The translations under genes and the position numbers were made by a program. Positions 38,538-45,674 of a stretch of 64,000 nt of DNA are shown in pieces (position 1 is the stretch's first letter; the number at the start of each line of letters is the position of its first letter). The stretch is from Mogibacterium sp. (GTDB lineage: Bacteria; Bacillota; Clostridia; Peptostreptococcales; Anaerovoracaceae), in NCBI GenBank assembly GCA_017434025.1, contig JAFRGC010000036.1, positions 19,192-83,191 of the forward strand. Reading direction: 5' to 3'. The notes beneath the pieces are model-generated. The model worked only from the letters and a program-made list of their open reading frames with translations, did not search any database and was not told the DNA's origin.

Positions 38538-39707
38538 CTATCTGCACATGCCCTCCGGGTAATTTACATATACTTTAGGGATCCTCAGATCGAAGCAGCA
38601 TGTGATCTCGTAGTTGATCGTTCCGTTGATCGCTGCCAGATCGTCTGCGCTGATCTCCTGATCTCCCTGTTTGCCCAGGATGACAACTTCGTCGCCGAGT
38701 TTGACATCAGGAACTTTGCTGACATCGACCATGCACTGGTCCATGCAGATGTTGCCGACGACAGGGCACTTGATGCCTCCGACGAGGACGCTGATCTTGC
38801 CGCTGTTGAGTCTCGAATAACCATCCGCGTAGCCGAGTCCGATCGTAGCGATCTTGGTCTCTTCAGCAGATGATGTGAACTTGCGTCCGTAGCTGACCGA
38901 TGTGCCGGCCGGTACGGTCTTGAGGTTCACGATCTCGGCTTTGACCGTCATGACAGGCCAGAGGTCGAGAACTTTGTTCTTGAGGTAGCCGGATGGAGCC
39001 AGTCCGTAGAGGATGATTCCTGGGCGGCATGCGTCGAAGTGGATCTCCGGATATACCATGATGGAAGCTGAGTTCGCGCAGATCTTCTTAGGATTGAAGC
39101 CTGCCGCATTGATCTTCTCTATGAACGCCTTGTAGTTAGCGATCTGCATTCCGGTGTATTCTCTCTGCTCCTCGTCAGCTGTCGAGAAGTGTGTGATGAC
39201 GCCGGCGACCTCGATACCAGGAAGCTCTGAGAACTTCTTGTACTGCTCTACTGCGTAGTCGCGCTCTTCTTCAGTGAATACTCTGAAACCGACTCTGCCC
39301 ATTCCTGTGTCGAGACCGAAAAGTACTCTCGCCGGTTCAGCACCCTGAGCCATGACCTCATCGCTCAGTGCTTTGACATAATCATAGTGCATGACTCCCG
39401 GGATCAGGTCGTACTCGATCACAGTATCCACGCATTCTATCGGTGTCAGCCCGAGAATCACGATGTTGCCCTCAATGCCGTCCTCGCGGAGATTGATGGC
39501 TTCTTCAAGAGTTGCTACTGCAAAACTATCTACACCGTTATACTGAAGGACTTTGGCGCACTCAGTAGCTCCATGCCCGTATCCGTTAGCCTTGATGACA
39601 CCTATCATCTTAGGGCATTTCATCTGGCGCTTGATTTCCTTAACATTGTGGTCGAAAGCCGACATATCGATCTCAGCCCAGACCTGTCTTAAAGTCTCCT
39701 TATACAT
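38538..39707 (-). CDS. alr: alanine racemase
   Basis: Makes D-alanine for peptidoglycan. The PLP lysine is in MIGVIKANGYGHG (near 39), and the second catalytic base is the tyrosine of GTSVSYGRKF. Length of 389 is normal. It is preceded by AGGAGAATAGGT and lies 48 bp before the PAP2 gene. CMDQCMVDVS is a conserved C-terminal-domain motif. Confidence 0.96.
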   Translation of the reverse strand: MYKETLRQVWAEIDMSAFDHNVKEIKRQMKCPKMIGVIKANGYGHGATECAKVLQYNGVDSFAVATLEEAINLREDGIEGNIVILGLTPIECVDTVIEYDLIPGVMHYDYVKALSDEVMAQGAEPARVLFGLDTGMGRVGFRVFTEEERDYAVEQYKKFSELPGIEVAGVITHFSTADEEQREYTGMQIANYKAFIEKINAAGFNPKKICANSASIMVYPEIHFDACRPGIILYGLAPSGYLKNKVLDLWPVMTVKAEIVNLKTVPAGTSVSYGRKFTSSAEETKIATIGLGYADGYSRLNSGKISVLVGGIKCPVVGNICMDQCMVDVSKVPDVKLGDEVVILGKQGDQEISADDLAAINGTINYEITCCFDLRIPKVYVNYPEGMCR

Positions 39708-39842: not shown

Positions 39843-40772
39843 TCAGGCAGAAGGATACTTCTGCATAAAGTCGTCTGTCAGGAATTCTTCACTCCGCTTA
39901 TGTTCACGGTCGAAGTAGCTGCCGGTTCTCAGATAGTATTCTCTGGACATACCGCTCGTGTCCCATGTCGCATCCAGTCCATAATACAGGCCGTCGAGGC
40001 AGACGATATTCCACACATGTTTATCCTCCGGCTCTCCGGGCTGCGCGGCTTTACCACATATAACGCGGTTGTCTATACCGGCCTCAAGAAGGAGCCTGTA
40101 CAGGGCGACAGAATACCCCTGGCAGTTCGCTTTGCCCTCTATGAGAGCCGCGTAGGCCGTACGCATCAGCGTGTACTCTTCATCTCCGAAATGTTCATCA
40201 TCATATACTACATTGGAGCAGACATAGTCATAGATCCTGCGGATCTTCTCCTCTGTACCAAGCCCGTCAAGATCCAGGCTGTCTATGATCTCACGGACCT
40301 TATCATCAACCTGCTTTTCCTGATCCGCGCTCGAATAGAAATTGATATCGTAGCTGATCAGCAGGCCCGGCGATCCCTTGAAAGAATTCGTCTCCCAGGA
40401 CACATACCACTTGTCGAGCTGGTAGTCCAGGTAGTCCCCTTCTGCAGGCTGCCCGGTATGCTCCAGCGCGTCAAAGACAAGACGGTGCATCATTTCCTTG
40501 CACTCGTCATGCTCCGTTGTATCCGTTAACAGGAAAAGGTTGACTGACGGGTCTCGTTCCCGCATGCAATCTCTCAGGACATCCACAGCCTCTGATTCTG
40601 ATCTGCAGAGCGTGACTTCGGCTCCGTCGATCGTAGCAACAGCATATTCACTGTCGACCGGCATCAGATTTGCAGCTGACGCCAAACCATCAGTGCATGC
40701 CGTAAGCAGCACCGCCGCCGATAATACCATCGCTAGACCGATCTTCAGACGTTTCATAGCCGGCTTTGTCAT
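39843..40772 (-). CDS. transglutaminase-domain lipoprotein
   Basis: A 309-residue exported protein: signal and lipobox LLTAC (Cys26), a beta-rich middle, and a C-terminal transglutaminase/protease-like core. The triad is visible: Cys217 in GKANCQGYSVALYRLL, His252 in KHVWNIVCLD, and Asp267 in GLDATWD. The family hydrolyses or cross-links peptides at the cell surface. Single-gene unit with its own terminator. ATG 40772 follows GAAGGGAACTCT; an ATG five codons later is possible. Confidence 0.85.
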   Translation of the reverse strand: MTKPAMKRLKIGLAMVLSAAVLLTACTDGLASAANLMPVDSEYAVATIDGAEVTLCRSESEAVDVLRDCMRERDPSVNLFLLTDTTEHDECKEMMHRLVFDALEHTGQPAEGDYLDYQLDKWYVSWETNSFKGSPGLLISYDINFYSSADQEKQVDDKVREIIDSLDLDGLGTEEKIRRIYDYVCSNVVYDDEHFGDEEYTLMRTAYAALIEGKANCQGYSVALYRLLLEAGIDNRVICGKAAQPGEPEDKHVWNIVCLDGLYYGLDATWDTSGMSREYYLRTGSYFDREHKRSEEFLTDDFMQKYPSA

Positions 40773-41009: not shown

Positions 41010-41036
41010 ATGGCAGGCCAATGGCCTGTCATTTTT
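41010..41036 (+). terminator. tRNA-Arg terminator, overlapping the end of the TIR gene
   Basis: Stem ATGGCAGGCC / GGCCTGTCAT with one mismatch and an AAT loop, followed by TTTTG. Its 3' arm contains the stop codon (41029-41031) of the convergent TIR-domain gene, and the T tract encodes that protein's final Lys. Confidence 0.85.
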
Positions 41037-43788
41037 GTTCCAGGATCTCTTTCAGTTTCCTCTGCAGCTGTTCCATCGTGATCGGTTTGAGCAGATATCC
41101 TCTGGCTCCCATCCGCACGCCTTCCTCCAGTTTGTCCTGTGCTGCCCGGTCTCCTACGAGCAGGAACGCAGGCCCGGATCTGGAGTGATGGAGTTCCGAT
41201 TTCAGATCATTCATCAGCTGAGTTGAGTACGACTTGATCTCCAGTACTACAATATCTGGCTCGATCTCGGAGCACTGCCTGCTCCAGTCCATGCTCAGCG
41301 GTACCATCAAGGCCCTGAATCCGTCCATCGGCATATGTCCCAGTTTCCAGTCACGCTCCGGTTCTGAATCATCGCAGATCATGACCCAAGGCAGCTTCTT
41401 CTCCGGGAACATTTCATACAGGCGGTTCAGCCGGTTCCTGAGGGCTTCCCTCCTGACTCTGTAATCCAGATTGCCCATGATGTTCCAGAGCTGTTGGCGC
41501 ATATCAAACACTTCTTCCAGCATGCGGATGTCTGTCTTGTCATCATCCTGATAGCCTGCCTCGTTCTCGAGACGGTTCGCGAGCCGCTCCAGATATTCAG
41601 GATTACGCGTATCTTCGTACAGTTTGGCCAGATTTTCTCTCATCTGCCGGAAGAACTCTGCCGCCTCCTCCTTATGACCGGTATTATACAGAAGTATGAA
41701 TAGATCATATTGCGCGTTGGTCCTTGTTTCTCTGGCCTGTGCGCCGTCCGGATCCTCTTCCGGAGTCTCAAGGCAGTCGCGGTAACACCGGATCGCGCTG
41801 GTCCGGTCTCCCAGCCAGTCATAGAAATCGCCAAGCTCACTGTACAGCCCGTTCAGCCTCAGGCCGTTCTCTCTTGCTTCTTCTAATTCCTCTTTCAGAA
41901 GCTCGATCGCTCTCAGGCAGTACTCTTTGGCCTTTTCTTTCTTGCCGGTCCGGTTGTATTGACGCATCAGAGTGTCGTATGTGCTGATCAGCGAGCGCCT
42001 TCCGGCAGGCGTTTTCTGTTTTGTATAGGCAGTCTCGGCAAATTCTCTTGCTTTCTCGTAAGCCTCTGCCGCCTCATCAGCTCTGTGCAGGTTATGCAAT
42101 ATGTCGCCTTCCTCATTCCACAGAGCTGTCATATCCTTGCTGAGGCTGTCCCTGTACTCTTCGGTCTGCAGCTCCATCAGCGGTTCCCTGGCAGCCCGGT
42201 AAGCCGCAAGCGCTTCCTCCCAGTCCTGCCGTTTTCCGTATATGGATGCCTGATACCGACAGGCAATATACAGATCGCAGCGGGCGGAATCCGTCGGATC
42301 CTCTTCCAGAAGGCTGCGGAATATCTCGATTGCCTGTCCGCAGTATTTCACGCCTTTCCAAGTCTCCCCGACTCCCGAGCCGACTTCTCCCAGTTTGCTC
42401 AGACACACCGCCAGATCGTGACGGCTTCCCGGCAGCTTGCGCTCGGCCGCTTCTTCCATCCAGGTCTTCTGATCATAGATGCAGGCATAGAGTTCCGCGA
42501 CTCTCCTCGCCCGGTGCAGCCTGTTCCCCAGGATGTTCTGTTCCTTGCACAGGGCCTGCAGATTCTCATCACTTCTGTTTTTCCGGTACCGTTCCTCCAG
42601 ACTGTGGCACAGTTCCTTCTGCCAGTCAGCTGCCTTATTGACTGACCGCGGAACACCTTTGCCGGTGTTGTACATGGACGAGAGCTTGCGCATCGCCTCT
42701 TCCAGACCTGCTTCAGCCGCTTCTGTGATCATCGCGACGCCCTTCTCGAGATCGACTTCCATGTTGATCCCGTCGAGGTAGGCGAGTCCGATCAGGAAGG
42801 TGTGCTGCATGTCACCCGTTCCGGTCCGCGTTCCCGTCTTAAGGGCAAGCCGCTGCATCTGTTTGGCCAGCGCATCATCCCAGTGCGGGCTGCCGTCTCC
42901 GTCCGCGCTCTCAGGTATCCCCTGATAACGCTTCGTGAGTTCGGCTTTCTCATCGGCGCTCAATTCTTTCATGATGACCGGGAAGATCCTCTTGCCCGCG
43001 TCTCTCGCTGCCGGATACTCGTGGTACATGACAAAATTAGGGTCCTCGAGCAGATTCGGCGTGACGACCATCGTGAAGAGGTCGCTCTCGTCGAGCGCTT
43101 TGTTGATTCCTTTATTAAAATCTTCTCCCGGTACGAGAAACTCATCGTACCAGAACGCGATGTCGCGGTACCGCGGGTTCCGGTGGATCATCCGCATCAG
43201 TTCCCTTGCGTACTCACGGTCCTTCTTGCGGTAGCTGAGGAAGACCAGCGCGTCAAAAGCGTCTCTCACCTTCTGCGCGGTCTCGTCGCTGACGATGACT
43301 TCCGAGAGAAACGATGAGAGTTTCTGCGGGAACGGGATCGCCGTCGGATCCGGATCATCCGGAACGAGGAATTGAAGATCCCCGAATTTCTTCTGATACC
43401 GTTTGGCCGGATCCGCTTCCATCATCAGTGGGAGGACCGGGATGCCGTGCCCCAGCGCATACGGAATGATGCTGTCCATCGCGGGGTTCGGTTCCGCCAG
43501 GAATTTCTTCGTGACTACCGCAACGACGAGCTGCATATCGCCGAGAACTTCGGCAATGCGCTCCTCACTGACTTTGTGACGCTGTTCGCCAGGCGGGATC
43601 TGTGCTCCGGACTGCTCGACATCAAAGTAGTACACGATGCAGTCCTGCTGATCCTGCAGCAGTTTAATGATATGATCGAGATGCTCCGACTGTTCGTCCG
43701 GGTGCGCTGTGATGAAAAATCTCGGTTTGCTGTTGAGATTATCCGCTTTTCCGGTCTGTGAACGGAGCTGGTCAGTCATTCTGTTCAT
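41029..43788 (-). CDS. tandem TIR / Sel1-TPR repeat / pseudo-receiver protein
   Basis: A 919-residue soluble protein. Residues 22-165 form a TIR-like fold (RFFITAHPDEQSEHLDHI, VVAVVTKKFL, IPVLPLMME). Residues 178-285 are a second, more canonical TIR: ALVFLSYRKKD, IAFWYDEFLVPGEDF, and TPNLLEDPNFVMYHEYPAA with Glu257 at the place of the NADase glutamate. Sel1-like repeats (about 330-390) and TPR-type helices (about 400-790) follow. The last 120 residues are receiver-like: VMICDDSEPE, DIVVLEIK where the phosphorylated Asp is Glu, and RGYLLKPITMEQL. It starts 18 bp after the S66 gene. Defence, signalling or scaffold roles are possible; none is proven. Confidence 0.8.
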   Translation of the reverse strand: MNRMTDQLRSQTGKADNLNSKPRFFITAHPDEQSEHLDHIIKLLQDQQDCIVYYFDVEQSGAQIPPGEQRHKVSEERIAEVLGDMQLVVAVVTKKFLAEPNPAMDSIIPYALGHGIPVLPLMMEADPAKRYQKKFGDLQFLVPDDPDPTAIPFPQKLSSFLSEVIVSDETAQKVRDAFDALVFLSYRKKDREYARELMRMIHRNPRYRDIAFWYDEFLVPGEDFNKGINKALDESDLFTMVVTPNLLEDPNFVMYHEYPAARDAGKRIFPVIMKELSADEKAELTKRYQGIPESADGDGSPHWDDALAKQMQRLALKTGTRTGTGDMQHTFLIGLAYLDGINMEVDLEKGVAMITEAAEAGLEEAMRKLSSMYNTGKGVPRSVNKAADWQKELCHSLEERYRKNRSDENLQALCKEQNILGNRLHRARRVAELYACIYDQKTWMEEAAERKLPGSRHDLAVCLSKLGEVGSGVGETWKGVKYCGQAIEIFRSLLEEDPTDSARCDLYIACRYQASIYGKRQDWEEALAAYRAAREPLMELQTEEYRDSLSKDMTALWNEEGDILHNLHRADEAAEAYEKAREFAETAYTKQKTPAGRRSLISTYDTLMRQYNRTGKKEKAKEYCLRAIELLKEELEEARENGLRLNGLYSELGDFYDWLGDRTSAIRCYRDCLETPEEDPDGAQARETRTNAQYDLFILLYNTGHKEEAAEFFRQMRENLAKLYEDTRNPEYLERLANRLENEAGYQDDDKTDIRMLEEVFDMRQQLWNIMGNLDYRVRREALRNRLNRLYEMFPEKKLPWVMICDDSEPERDWKLGHMPMDGFRALMVPLSMDWSRQCSEIEPDIVVLEIKSYSTQLMNDLKSELHHSRSGPAFLLVGDRAAQDKLEEGVRMGARGYLLKPITMEQLQRKLKEILEQK

Positions 43789-43806: not shown

Positions 43807-44643
43807 CTATTCAAATCTCATATTCTTCCCTATCACGATGGCCTTCGAGTCATACCCGTGCCCGATGTCTCTTGTCACTGCTACCGGCAGGTCATCTCTG
43901 ATATGCATCTTCAGAAGGTCATAGACCGTCATCTTCAGATTGGCTCTCTCATAATTTGTAAATGTCCCGAGCAGTACGCCGGCGACCTGATCGAACACTC
44001 CGATCAAGTCCAGCTGGGCCAGCAGCGTCGCGATCTGCCCGGACTCCCCGCCAAATGATTCGAGGAACAGGATCTTGTCCTGCAGATCCGGCCAGAATTT
44101 TGTCCCGGCGAGCTTCGCAAAGCACCTTATATTGCCTCCGACCATGATGCCTTCCATCCGGTCGCCCTGGGCGAATTGATAATCAATACCAAACAGTCCT
44201 TTCGGGTCGCCCGCTACAAGATCACGGACCCGCTTTCTCTGCAATTCCGCATCCTTCCACACCAGATTCTCGATCTGCCACAATACCGAAGGCTTCCCGG
44301 TCATGGTGTAGATCGCATTGATCACTGTAGTCAGGTCACTGTATCCCCAGAAGGTCTTATCGGATGCTGCGATCACCTCGAAGTCCAGATATTTCAGAAC
44401 GCCGTTTGCCAGGTCTCCGCCTGAGATATCGCAGATCATATCGATCGAATCGTCTCTGTAGAACGCCATGAGATCTGCTGCGCGTTCTTCGTCAGTTCCG
44501 CTGAATGTATCAGTCCGGGCATAGATGTGCGGAGCCGGCACCGGCTCTGCCCCAAATTCCCTGAGCACCTCCATCAGCTCTTCTTCCTGTTTCTTGTCCT
44601 CTATGTTCCGCCCGTTAGAGCATGCTGAAATCCCAATTCTCAT
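43807..44643 (-). CDS. S66 (LD-carboxypeptidase/MccF-like) protein, nucleophile apparently missing
   Basis: A 278-residue protein with the S66 two-domain layout: MRIGISACS at the start, DMICDISGGDLANGVLKYLD, WGYSDLTTVINAIY, a glutamate block LESFGGESGQIATLLAQL, and a histidine block DIGHGYDSKAIVIG. Classical members have GGYGS with nucleophilic Ser; here the aligned residue appears to be Ala79 of GGDLA. Either catalysis differs or the protein binds rather than cuts. It overlaps the hydrolase gene by 4 bp and precedes the TIR gene by 18 bp. Confidence 0.75.
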   Translation of the reverse strand: MRIGISACSNGRNIEDKKQEEELMEVLREFGAEPVPAPHIYARTDTFSGTDEERAADLMAFYRDDSIDMICDISGGDLANGVLKYLDFEVIAASDKTFWGYSDLTTVINAIYTMTGKPSVLWQIENLVWKDAELQRKRVRDLVAGDPKGLFGIDYQFAQGDRMEGIMVGGNIRCFAKLAGTKFWPDLQDKILFLESFGGESGQIATLLAQLDLIGVFDQVAGVLLGTFTNYERANLKMTVYDLLKMHIRDDLPVAVTRDIGHGYDSKAIVIGKNMRFE

Positions 44644-45449
44644 TTCTCTTCCGATCTCTCTTTCAGGAACGCCAGAATGTGTGCATTCACTTCTTCCGGC
44701 CTATCGACATTCACATTATGTGCGGCTCCGCGGATGATCTTCAGCGGATAACCGGTGCGTTTGGTCCACGCTTTATTGTATTGCGCCACTTTGCCGGTCT
44801 TGTCCTTCTCGCCCAGGATCAGCAGGACCGGACAAGGAATTTCCAGTTCGCAGTTGTCCTCCAGAAATCCCGCATAGCCGACACCCATCAGGTGGCACAG
44901 TTCGTTTTTGCCATAAGGAGCCAGCATCTGCATCATGTTCTCGTAAGACTTCTGCGTGGTGGATACCTGTTTGGCCATCGCCTTCTTCATCATCTGCAGC
45001 GGATACAGATGGGCCATCCACTCGACCTGTCTGATGATCCAGATGTCGAGCTTCGAGTAATAGCCGGACCCGTACGGAGAGCTGTCTATCGAGATGAACC
45101 CTTTGACACGATCCGGATACCGCTTGATGAAAGACTGCACGACATATCCGCCGAGCGACTGGCCGGCAAGGTACACCCTGCGCACCTCCAGTTCGTCCAG
45201 AATAGTCTTGATGTATTCCGAAGTATCACCGAAATCAAACTCCGCAAACGGCCTCGACTTCCCATGCGCCGGCGTATCCCAGGTCAGGAGGTTGTAGTCC
45301 TTATCAAAGAACTCGACCTGCCCGTCAAACATCGTGTGATCCGCCGTGAGCCCGTGCAGGAAGAAAATCGTGTCCGCACCGGCATCCCAGTTCTCCGACC
45401 TCCAGTAGTGAACATCACCCTTGGCCGTCCGAAGAATCAGTTCCTTCAT
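44640..45449 (-). CDS. alpha/beta hydrolase
   Basis: A 269-residue soluble hydrolase. Oxyanion motif FLHGLTADHTMF, nucleophile elbow LAGQSLGGYVVQ (Ser), acid in LLILGEKDKTG and the histidine in IRGAAHNVNVDRPEEV. ATG 45449 follows GGGGTGAAGGTC and gives the normal family length; the frame continues upstream through Cys-rich noise that I reject. First gene of the unit with the S66-like and TIR genes. Substrate unknown. Confidence 0.88.
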   Translation of the reverse strand: MKELILRTAKGDVHYWRSENWDAGADTIFFLHGLTADHTMFDGQVEFFDKDYNLLTWDTPAHGKSRPFAEFDFGDTSEYIKTILDELEVRRVYLAGQSLGGYVVQSFIKRYPDRVKGFISIDSSPYGSGYYSKLDIWIIRQVEWMAHLYPLQMMKKAMAKQVSTTQKSYENMMQMLAPYGKNELCHLMGVGYAGFLEDNCELEIPCPVLLILGEKDKTGKVAQYNKAWTKRTGYPLKIIRGAAHNVNVDRPEEVNAHILAFLKERSEEK

Positions 45450-45562
45450 GACCTTCACCCCCTCATCTTCAGTGATCCCTTTTGACACTATGATATCACA
45501 GCAGTATTTCCCTGACCACGGCAACATGCACCAACATCCGGCATCACCACACGCAATCAAAC

Positions 45563-45594: not shown

Positions 45595-45674
45595 ATGTTC
45601 TTATTATTACAGATATGAAAGTGTTTGTGCGCAGTGCATACCAAAACTCTTGCCTGCCCCGCTCGCTAAACTTT

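Follow-up and report, generated by a model that had tools for sequence, protein, structure and literature searches.

A tandem-TIR protein with Sel1/TPR repeats and a pseudo-receiver domain from Mogibacterium sp., and the linkage of part of its family to RyR-domain genes

What does a bacterial protein do when two TIR domains, a Sel1/TPR repeat array and a receiver domain sit in one chain? The question is raised by a gene in a 64,000-nucleotide stretch of a Mogibacterium sp. genome (the whole analysed stretch is called the window here). The reading we prefer, and regard as fairly probable, is that its product is a cytosolic accessory immune sensor-enzyme with an NADase/cyclase TIR domain. The domain order given in the original prediction was confirmed by the open reading frame (ORF), Pfam, an AlphaFold2 model and profile searches, and the gene and its parts lie as follows:

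41029..43788, minus strand: TIR-TIR-Sel1-TPR-REC gene, 919 aa (ORF list; Pfam; AlphaFold2 model)
43294..43731, minus strand: first TIR domain, residues 20-165, with Ile107 at the catalytic-Glu position
42871..43257, minus strand: second TIR domain, canonical, residues 178-306
43018..43020, minus strand: codon of Glu257, the predicted catalytic glutamate (Glu in 85/85 aligned rows)
42613..42810, minus strand: Sel1-like repeats, about residues 327-392 (PDB Sel1 proteins, Pfam)
41419..42570, minus strand: TPR-type helical array, about residues 407-790
41032..41415, minus strand: pseudo-receiver domain, residues 792-919, with D806, D807, E850 at the phospho-site and K901

The AlphaFold2 model of the 919-aa protein has a mean pLDDT of 83.1 and a pTM of 0.81. 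The results of a fold search with the whole protein were filled by TPR proteins, so the two TIRs were modelled separately. This part-by-part fold search, proposed with the original prediction, bore it out: residues 20-165 and 178-306 were both modelled as TIR folds, and the receiver profile matches CheY. Plain Foldseek with the two-TIR model gave top rows in which EngA GTPases and UDP-GlcNAc epimerases (rmsd 11-22) were mixed with TIR proteins; we set the GTPase and epimerase matches aside because they are whole-model alignments of two Rossmann-like units. By sequence, a profile of the N-terminal domain found no TIR match in the PDB, and this domain is assigned as a TIR from structure modelling and fold comparison. 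The Sel1 part matches PDB Sel1 proteins at E 3e-15 and scores 26 bits with Pfam Sel1, below the cut-off of 30.7. There is no transmembrane stretch in the protein (highest 19-residue hydropathy 1.21), and a promoter/terminator scan gave 5 vs 3.0 expected, and 4 vs 3.5 expected. Tandem DNA repeats are absent from the TPR part of the window gene. In one relative, the DNA that encodes the TPR part repeats in tandem with a 141-bp unit and 90% matches (L098:11251-11673), which suggests that the sensor repeats have turned over recently.

The enzymatic reading begins with the second TIR. In an alignment of 85 rows (the window protein, L013, L014, L015, 79 of the 80 loci kept from the collection search described below, and two viral contigs; L038 duplicates L015, and L023 sits on G505:C22), position 257 is Glu in every row although residues 255 and 256 vary widely. 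The peptide patterns used in the collection search excluded position 257. In tir-1, the residue aligned with this column is also a Glu, the catalytic one of that protein. The original prediction of a canonical TIR with Glu at the NADase position thus holds throughout the family alignment, and both features of a catalytic TIR NADase, the fold and the glutamate, were found in the window protein, whose second TIR looks enzymatic as far as sequence can predict. At position 107, the first-TIR counterpart of 257, the 85 rows hold E34, D33, V6, I5, L4, A2 and Q1. For inactive proteins of the TIR-DrHyd-SLOG class, a role as nucleotide-binding sensors has been proposed (PMC9503650), and by analogy such a role is possible for the first TIR. 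The invariance of E257 beside such variable residues argues against a reading in which the TIRs only act as scaffolds, i.e., serve protein interactions in everyday signalling or at the cell envelope, possibly together with the adjacent S66 peptidase and hydrolase genes; we consider this quite unlikely and return to its genomic side below.

The C-terminal domain invites a different reading. A four-member profile matches CheY at E 4.7e-9, so the fold is that of a receiver, and the fold is well supported. It occurs in 4/85 members (the window protein, L021, L022 and L023), which form one clade with local support of 1.0; a profile made from the four receiver stretches gave no match at E<=10 in any of the remaining 81 rows, nine of which are cut at the 3' end. 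The original prediction had coupled the protein to two-component signalling through a phosphomimetic receiver. As an explanation of the protein, this would mean that the phospho-site Glu locks an active-like state or that the domain couples to a histidine kinase, and the window copy does keep D806, D807 and K901 around E850, within a well-supported fold. However, no phosphorylatable Asp is present at the site in the window receiver, and the four aligned receivers read E, G, G, D at the phospho-site, K, R, R, R at the Lys and V, V, A, T at the switch Thr. A phosphomimic receiver is therefore rejected as a family feature, the coupling claim is not supported, and, with most members showing no receiver at all, we judge a two-component-coupled effector to be very improbable. 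The likeness to CheY-like response regulators is thus one of fold by profile, and the difference is that the phosphorylation site is not conserved in the clade of the window protein; phosphorylation is not supported by these sequences. Conflict-system receivers have been proposed as kinase-independent, nucleotide-responsive switches (PMC8195603), which speaks further against the two-component reading, and by analogy a kinase-free switch of this kind would fit the domain better than phosphorylation does.

The survey of homologues and neighbours proposed with the original prediction gave a large family, part of which is linked to RyR-domain genes. The window genome (G000; 2.2 Mb, 84% complete) has nine TIR_2 matches, eight of them over the cut-off, and three family members: the window copy and one each on C68 (L013) and C8 (L014). 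A whole-protein match was found in 2/119 genomes of the GTDB family, i.e., the window genome itself and G067. A single-protein search of genome contigs returned no relative, and an alignment-based search did. With the four-member profile, 16/391 genomes of the class (window genome included) match at E<=1e-6, nine of them above 100 bits. Among 84,980 species genomes, 506 stretches match one of two peptide patterns and 405 encode relatives, of which the best 80 were kept for reading. The titles of these best 80 of 405 are mostly those of uncultured Clostridia-type Bacillota metagenome bins, many named for animal gut sites, with several Solobacterium or Erysipelotrichaceae among them and a Coriobacteriaceae bin as the best match. 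The family genomes are mostly metagenome bins. No match was found in 50,697 phage and 72,556 plasmid records; IMG/VR has two relatives, one of which (L127) directly follows a putative integrase ORF. Within the genus, where the bins are 74-99% complete, one of the eight other genomes has family members (G505, four on one contig); in the remaining 7/8, several of them incomplete bins, no member was found at E<=1e-10.

Is the window gene then part of the fixed equipment of its genus? Four further genes bear on this:

43807..44643, minus strand: S66 LD-carboxypeptidase gene, start-side neighbour of the TIR gene with 18 bases between the ORFs (Pfam Peptidase_S66, 112.5 bits)
44640..45485, minus strand: alpha/beta hydrolase gene upstream of the S66 gene, possible further start at 45644 (Pfam Abhydrolase_1, 70.6 bits)
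39843..40772, minus strand: transglutaminase-like gene downstream of the TIR gene (Pfam Transglut_core, 49.6 bits)
38538..39707, minus strand: alanine racemase gene (alr, named by eye), the conserved flank for the synteny test (90-93% identity, 5 same-genus genomes)

The alr gene has a match in 6/8 same-genus genomes, five at 90-93% identity and one at 49%. On the five well-matched stretches alr is followed by PAP2 in 5/5 and by UDG in 4/5, and the TIR, S66 and transglutaminase genes have no tblastn match there; these stretches extend 2.4-11 kb beyond alr, the shortest reaching only the start of the TIR position. G504 carries, some 10 kb away from alr, an ORF that resembles a serine recombinase. 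The window gene is accessory and lies in a region that varies across the genus. A housekeeping role was rejected on this variability and on the absence of the family from most same-genus genomes (7/8, incomplete bins among them). Among the relatives found, the window copy is closest to L021, which comes from a Coriobacteriaceae bin of 67% GC (flanks 67% GC, gene 68% GC), and not to members from its own genus; because this closest relative is a high-GC one, transfer between phyla is suggested for the lineage of the window copy, the bins themselves being unverified. GC content gives no transfer signal of its own (window gene 55.0% vs window 52.8%).

The same-strand order of hydrolase, S66 and TIR genes with a short gap favours the scaffold reading with its adjacent partners. 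These partners do not recur beside other members, which counts against it: among the neighbours of 85 regions, the only S66 match at E<=1e-5 and the only alpha/beta hydrolase are the window's own copies, and at E<=1e-30 S66 has no match in 14/14 other relatives. An S66-TIR operon as a functional unit was rejected on these grounds, and the S66 gene may have arrived together with the TIR gene. Transglutaminase-like matches occur near three relatives, L065 (gene position -4), L035 (-3) and L058 (+2). No recognised effector was found among the four scanned neighbours of the window copy (S66, alpha/beta hydrolase, GalT and transglutaminase).

The protein also differs from the TIR systems with which it might be compared. 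Thoeris (ThsB TIR plus ThsA) resembles it in being an accessory system whose TIR is predicted to make an ADPR-type signal for a second protein. However, no ThsA effector (SIR2-SLOG or macro type) was found beside the window TIR gene among the four neighbours scanned and the others read by eye, and a ThsB-type TIR was not recognised (Pfam ThsB_TIR unreported at E<=1, PADLOC ThsB1 only 16.8 bits). In contrast to Thoeris, the window protein has two TIRs and Sel1/TPR repeats, and the likely reader in part of its family is a RyR-domain protein. SARM1 has ARM and SAM domains; the window protein differs from the NAD+ hydrolases SARM1 and TIR-1 in its second TIR and its Sel1/TPR part. The TPR-S / TIR conflict systems are a further class to compare it with; no match named after their TPR-S sensor was among the Pfam matches at E<=1. 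The original prediction that no described system has the same order agrees with what was found: no single Pfam, PADLOC or NCBIfam model covers the full domain order, and neither this order nor a host TIR-RyR link was found in the literature searched. Each part is known by itself.

The evidence for a second protein comes from gene neighbourhoods. We built a RyR HMM from 16 sequences, 14 of them class matches and the other two L015 (the family locus L038) and L020, and ran it on the ORFs of 82 family loci with about 1.07 Mb of flanks, the window being excluded. It matched at 9/82 loci (L023, L028, L038, L050, L055, L056, L059, L060 and L077). Pfam RyR is over its cut-off at five of these nine (L028, L038, L050, L059 and L060) and below it at L056 and L023, with no match at E<=0.05 in L055 and L077. 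No RyR was found in the examined flanks, many of them short, of the other 73/82 loci. The class background is 33 RyR matches, 32 over the cut-off, in 27/391 genomes, and control genomes have none (0/14). In the family flanks, 0.036 over-cut-off RyR matches were thus expected vs the five loci seen (P about 5e-10), an expectation that assumes an estimated mean genome of ~2.4 Mb and ignores relatedness. Among strong family carriers, 4/9 genomes have RyR (P 0.0018), or 3/8 with the window genome left out (P 0.012); in these three the RyR gene is adjacent (G350) or on other contigs (G241), or the genome has only an N-terminal family fragment (G367).

The reverse comparison started from 15 RyR loci, which hold 17 of the 33 class matches and are mostly the best-scoring ones. 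A TIR gene lies within 3.5 kb at 9/15 (L143, L148, L149, L150, L151, L152, L153, L154 and L159, of which L154 and L159 are close relatives). L144 was left out of this count because its one candidate is an N-terminal family fragment that Pfam does not match, and no TIR gene was found within the same distance of L146, L147, L155, L158 and L160. Across genomes, a TIR_2 match is present in 22/27 RyR-bearing genomes vs 123/391 overall (P 3.9e-8). Linkage between RyR and TIR genes is far above the estimated background in both the family and the class. For part of the family, these neighbourhoods support RyR as a reader of the TIR product; they do not do so for the window copy.

No RyR gene lies beside the window copy, and Pfam RyR matches in its own genome are on C42 and C85 only, with a further RyR protein on C8 recognised by our HMM. 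The C42 gene (L020:3718-5277, the same gene as L008) combines Ion_trans_2 (61 bits) with RyR (28.8 bits, cut-off 27.4) and has a TIR gene about 1 kb away. The C85 gene (L158:2317-3921, its RyR also listed as L130) has the same plan of a K+-channel-type pore with a C-terminal RyR, which scores 21.8 bits, below the cut-off; no TIR gene was seen near it. A ligand for such domains is suggested by phage RyDEP, which, according to a 2026 preprint (PMC13232231), binds and cleaves 2'/3'cADPR through contacts at H75, W78, H100 and D117, and 6/8 tested homologues of which bound 2'/3'cADPR signals. His-x-x-Trp is present in 30/30 of our RyR ORFs, Asp at exactly +42 in 19/30 and His at exactly +25 in 9/30, many others having Thr there. 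The RyR of L020 has His, Trp, His and Asp at exactly 0, +3, +25 and +42, and that of L158 has Asn at +25 and His at +42, so the RyDEP residues at these two positions are not kept. The likeness to RyDEP (PF02026) is thus that family-neighbour RyR ORFs share the H75, W78 and D117 spacing, which is a match of spacing and not structural proof. The difference is that RyDEP, as described in that preprint, is a phage counter-defence protein, whereas the RyR genes here adjoin bacterial TIR genes and some are fused to channel pores. RyR proteins that stand alone (93-115 aa) may, instead of reading a signal, degrade or buffer it.

With no partner at its side, the window copy could also act alone, as a single-protein abortive NADase in which infection leads to TIR assembly and NAD+ collapse with neither messenger nor partner. 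SpbK offers a precedent, being reported as a TIR protein and antiphage NADase (PMC12847820); the likeness to SpbK and other single TIR antiphage NADases is that there is no obvious neighbour partner. The solitary window copy and the lack of RyR in the examined flanks of most family loci are what this reading would lead one to expect, whereas the RyR-TIR linkage and the RyR proteins of the window genome itself count against it. We hold it to be a real possibility that falls short of probable, and its odds overlap those of our preferred explanation because it is one branch of the output step which that explanation leaves open.

In the preferred explanation, an accessory immune sensor-enzyme, the Sel1/TPR solenoid would recognise an infection cue or partner and the TIR domains would then assemble; in the receiver clade, the unphosphorylated receiver may help in this recognition. 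The second TIR, using E257, would split NAD+ into nicotinamide and either ADP-ribose or cyclic ADP-ribose, and the first TIR of the window copy would be a non-catalytic partner or nucleotide-binding subunit. The output would be NAD+ loss or a signal that RyR-domain proteins read, the latter being what gene neighbourhoods suggest in part of the family, and the loss of NAD+ or the TIR product would stop growth. Candidate readers in the same genome, away from the window, are the two K+-channel-RyR proteins and, in a paralogue cassette, a RyR protein that bears an HD-like motif by eye. The broader claim of the original prediction, a TIR enzyme of probable defence type, gains support from the invariant Glu, the patchy occurrence in the genus, the variable region and the paralogues among conflict-type genes.

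A wider extension, which we offer as speculation and think rather unlikely to hold in full, is a Clostridia-type TIR-RyR immune circuit. Cyclic ADP-ribose made by TIR sensors, the tandem-TIR ones among them, would be bound by RyR domains; some of these are fused to a K+-channel pore (L020, L158), and infection would open the channel and stop the cell. The window protein would be a RyR-unlinked, pseudo-receiver branch feeding effectors in trans. If true, the circuit would mirror, in bacteria, the cADPR-tuned ryanodine receptors. With a host TIR-to-RyR route, TIR effectors would gain a new class, and the proposed connection between cADPR and ryanodine receptors a bacterial test case. The window protein matters here as the one that leads to the statistical TIR-RyR gene link, RyR-K+-channel fusions included.

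The neighbourhoods of paralogues and relatives hold further observations. The C68 paralogue (L013:8811-13086) adjoins genes for an AAA protein (MoxR-like; bpMoxR just below cut-off), a DUF2201 VWA protein and a BspA-type LRR protein, a set reminiscent, by analogy, of MoxR-vWA ternary conflict systems; a cluster of 16 tRNA genes (L013:1084-4297, G000:C68) lies about 1.5 kb from this paralogue. Around a family member, a cassette is common to L014:6530-12082 plus L186:2619-4811 and to L023:6949-16361. It includes a protein of 322 aa in L014 that Pfam does not match and whose L023 relative Pfam assigns to the DSP phosphatases. A second protein, of 182-192 aa, has no Pfam match either, and a third, larger one shows an HD-like motif (by eye) and ends in a weak RyR. 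In L014, the cassette holds a DUF4062 protein and a TROVE-like protein (21.4 bits, cut-off 23) as well as this relative of the DSP-phosphatase protein of L023. The same-genus contig with four family members (L178, G505:C22:18001-35887) carries 26 tRNA genes and a ROOL RNA (314 bits), with further ORFs that read as RtcB and as TROVE/Ro60-like; the combination of ROOL and tRNA clusters might indicate a mobile element. In G350, a 1359-aa protein matching PADLOC PD-T4-6 is encoded directly upstream of the RyR gene and the family member (L143:2780-6859).
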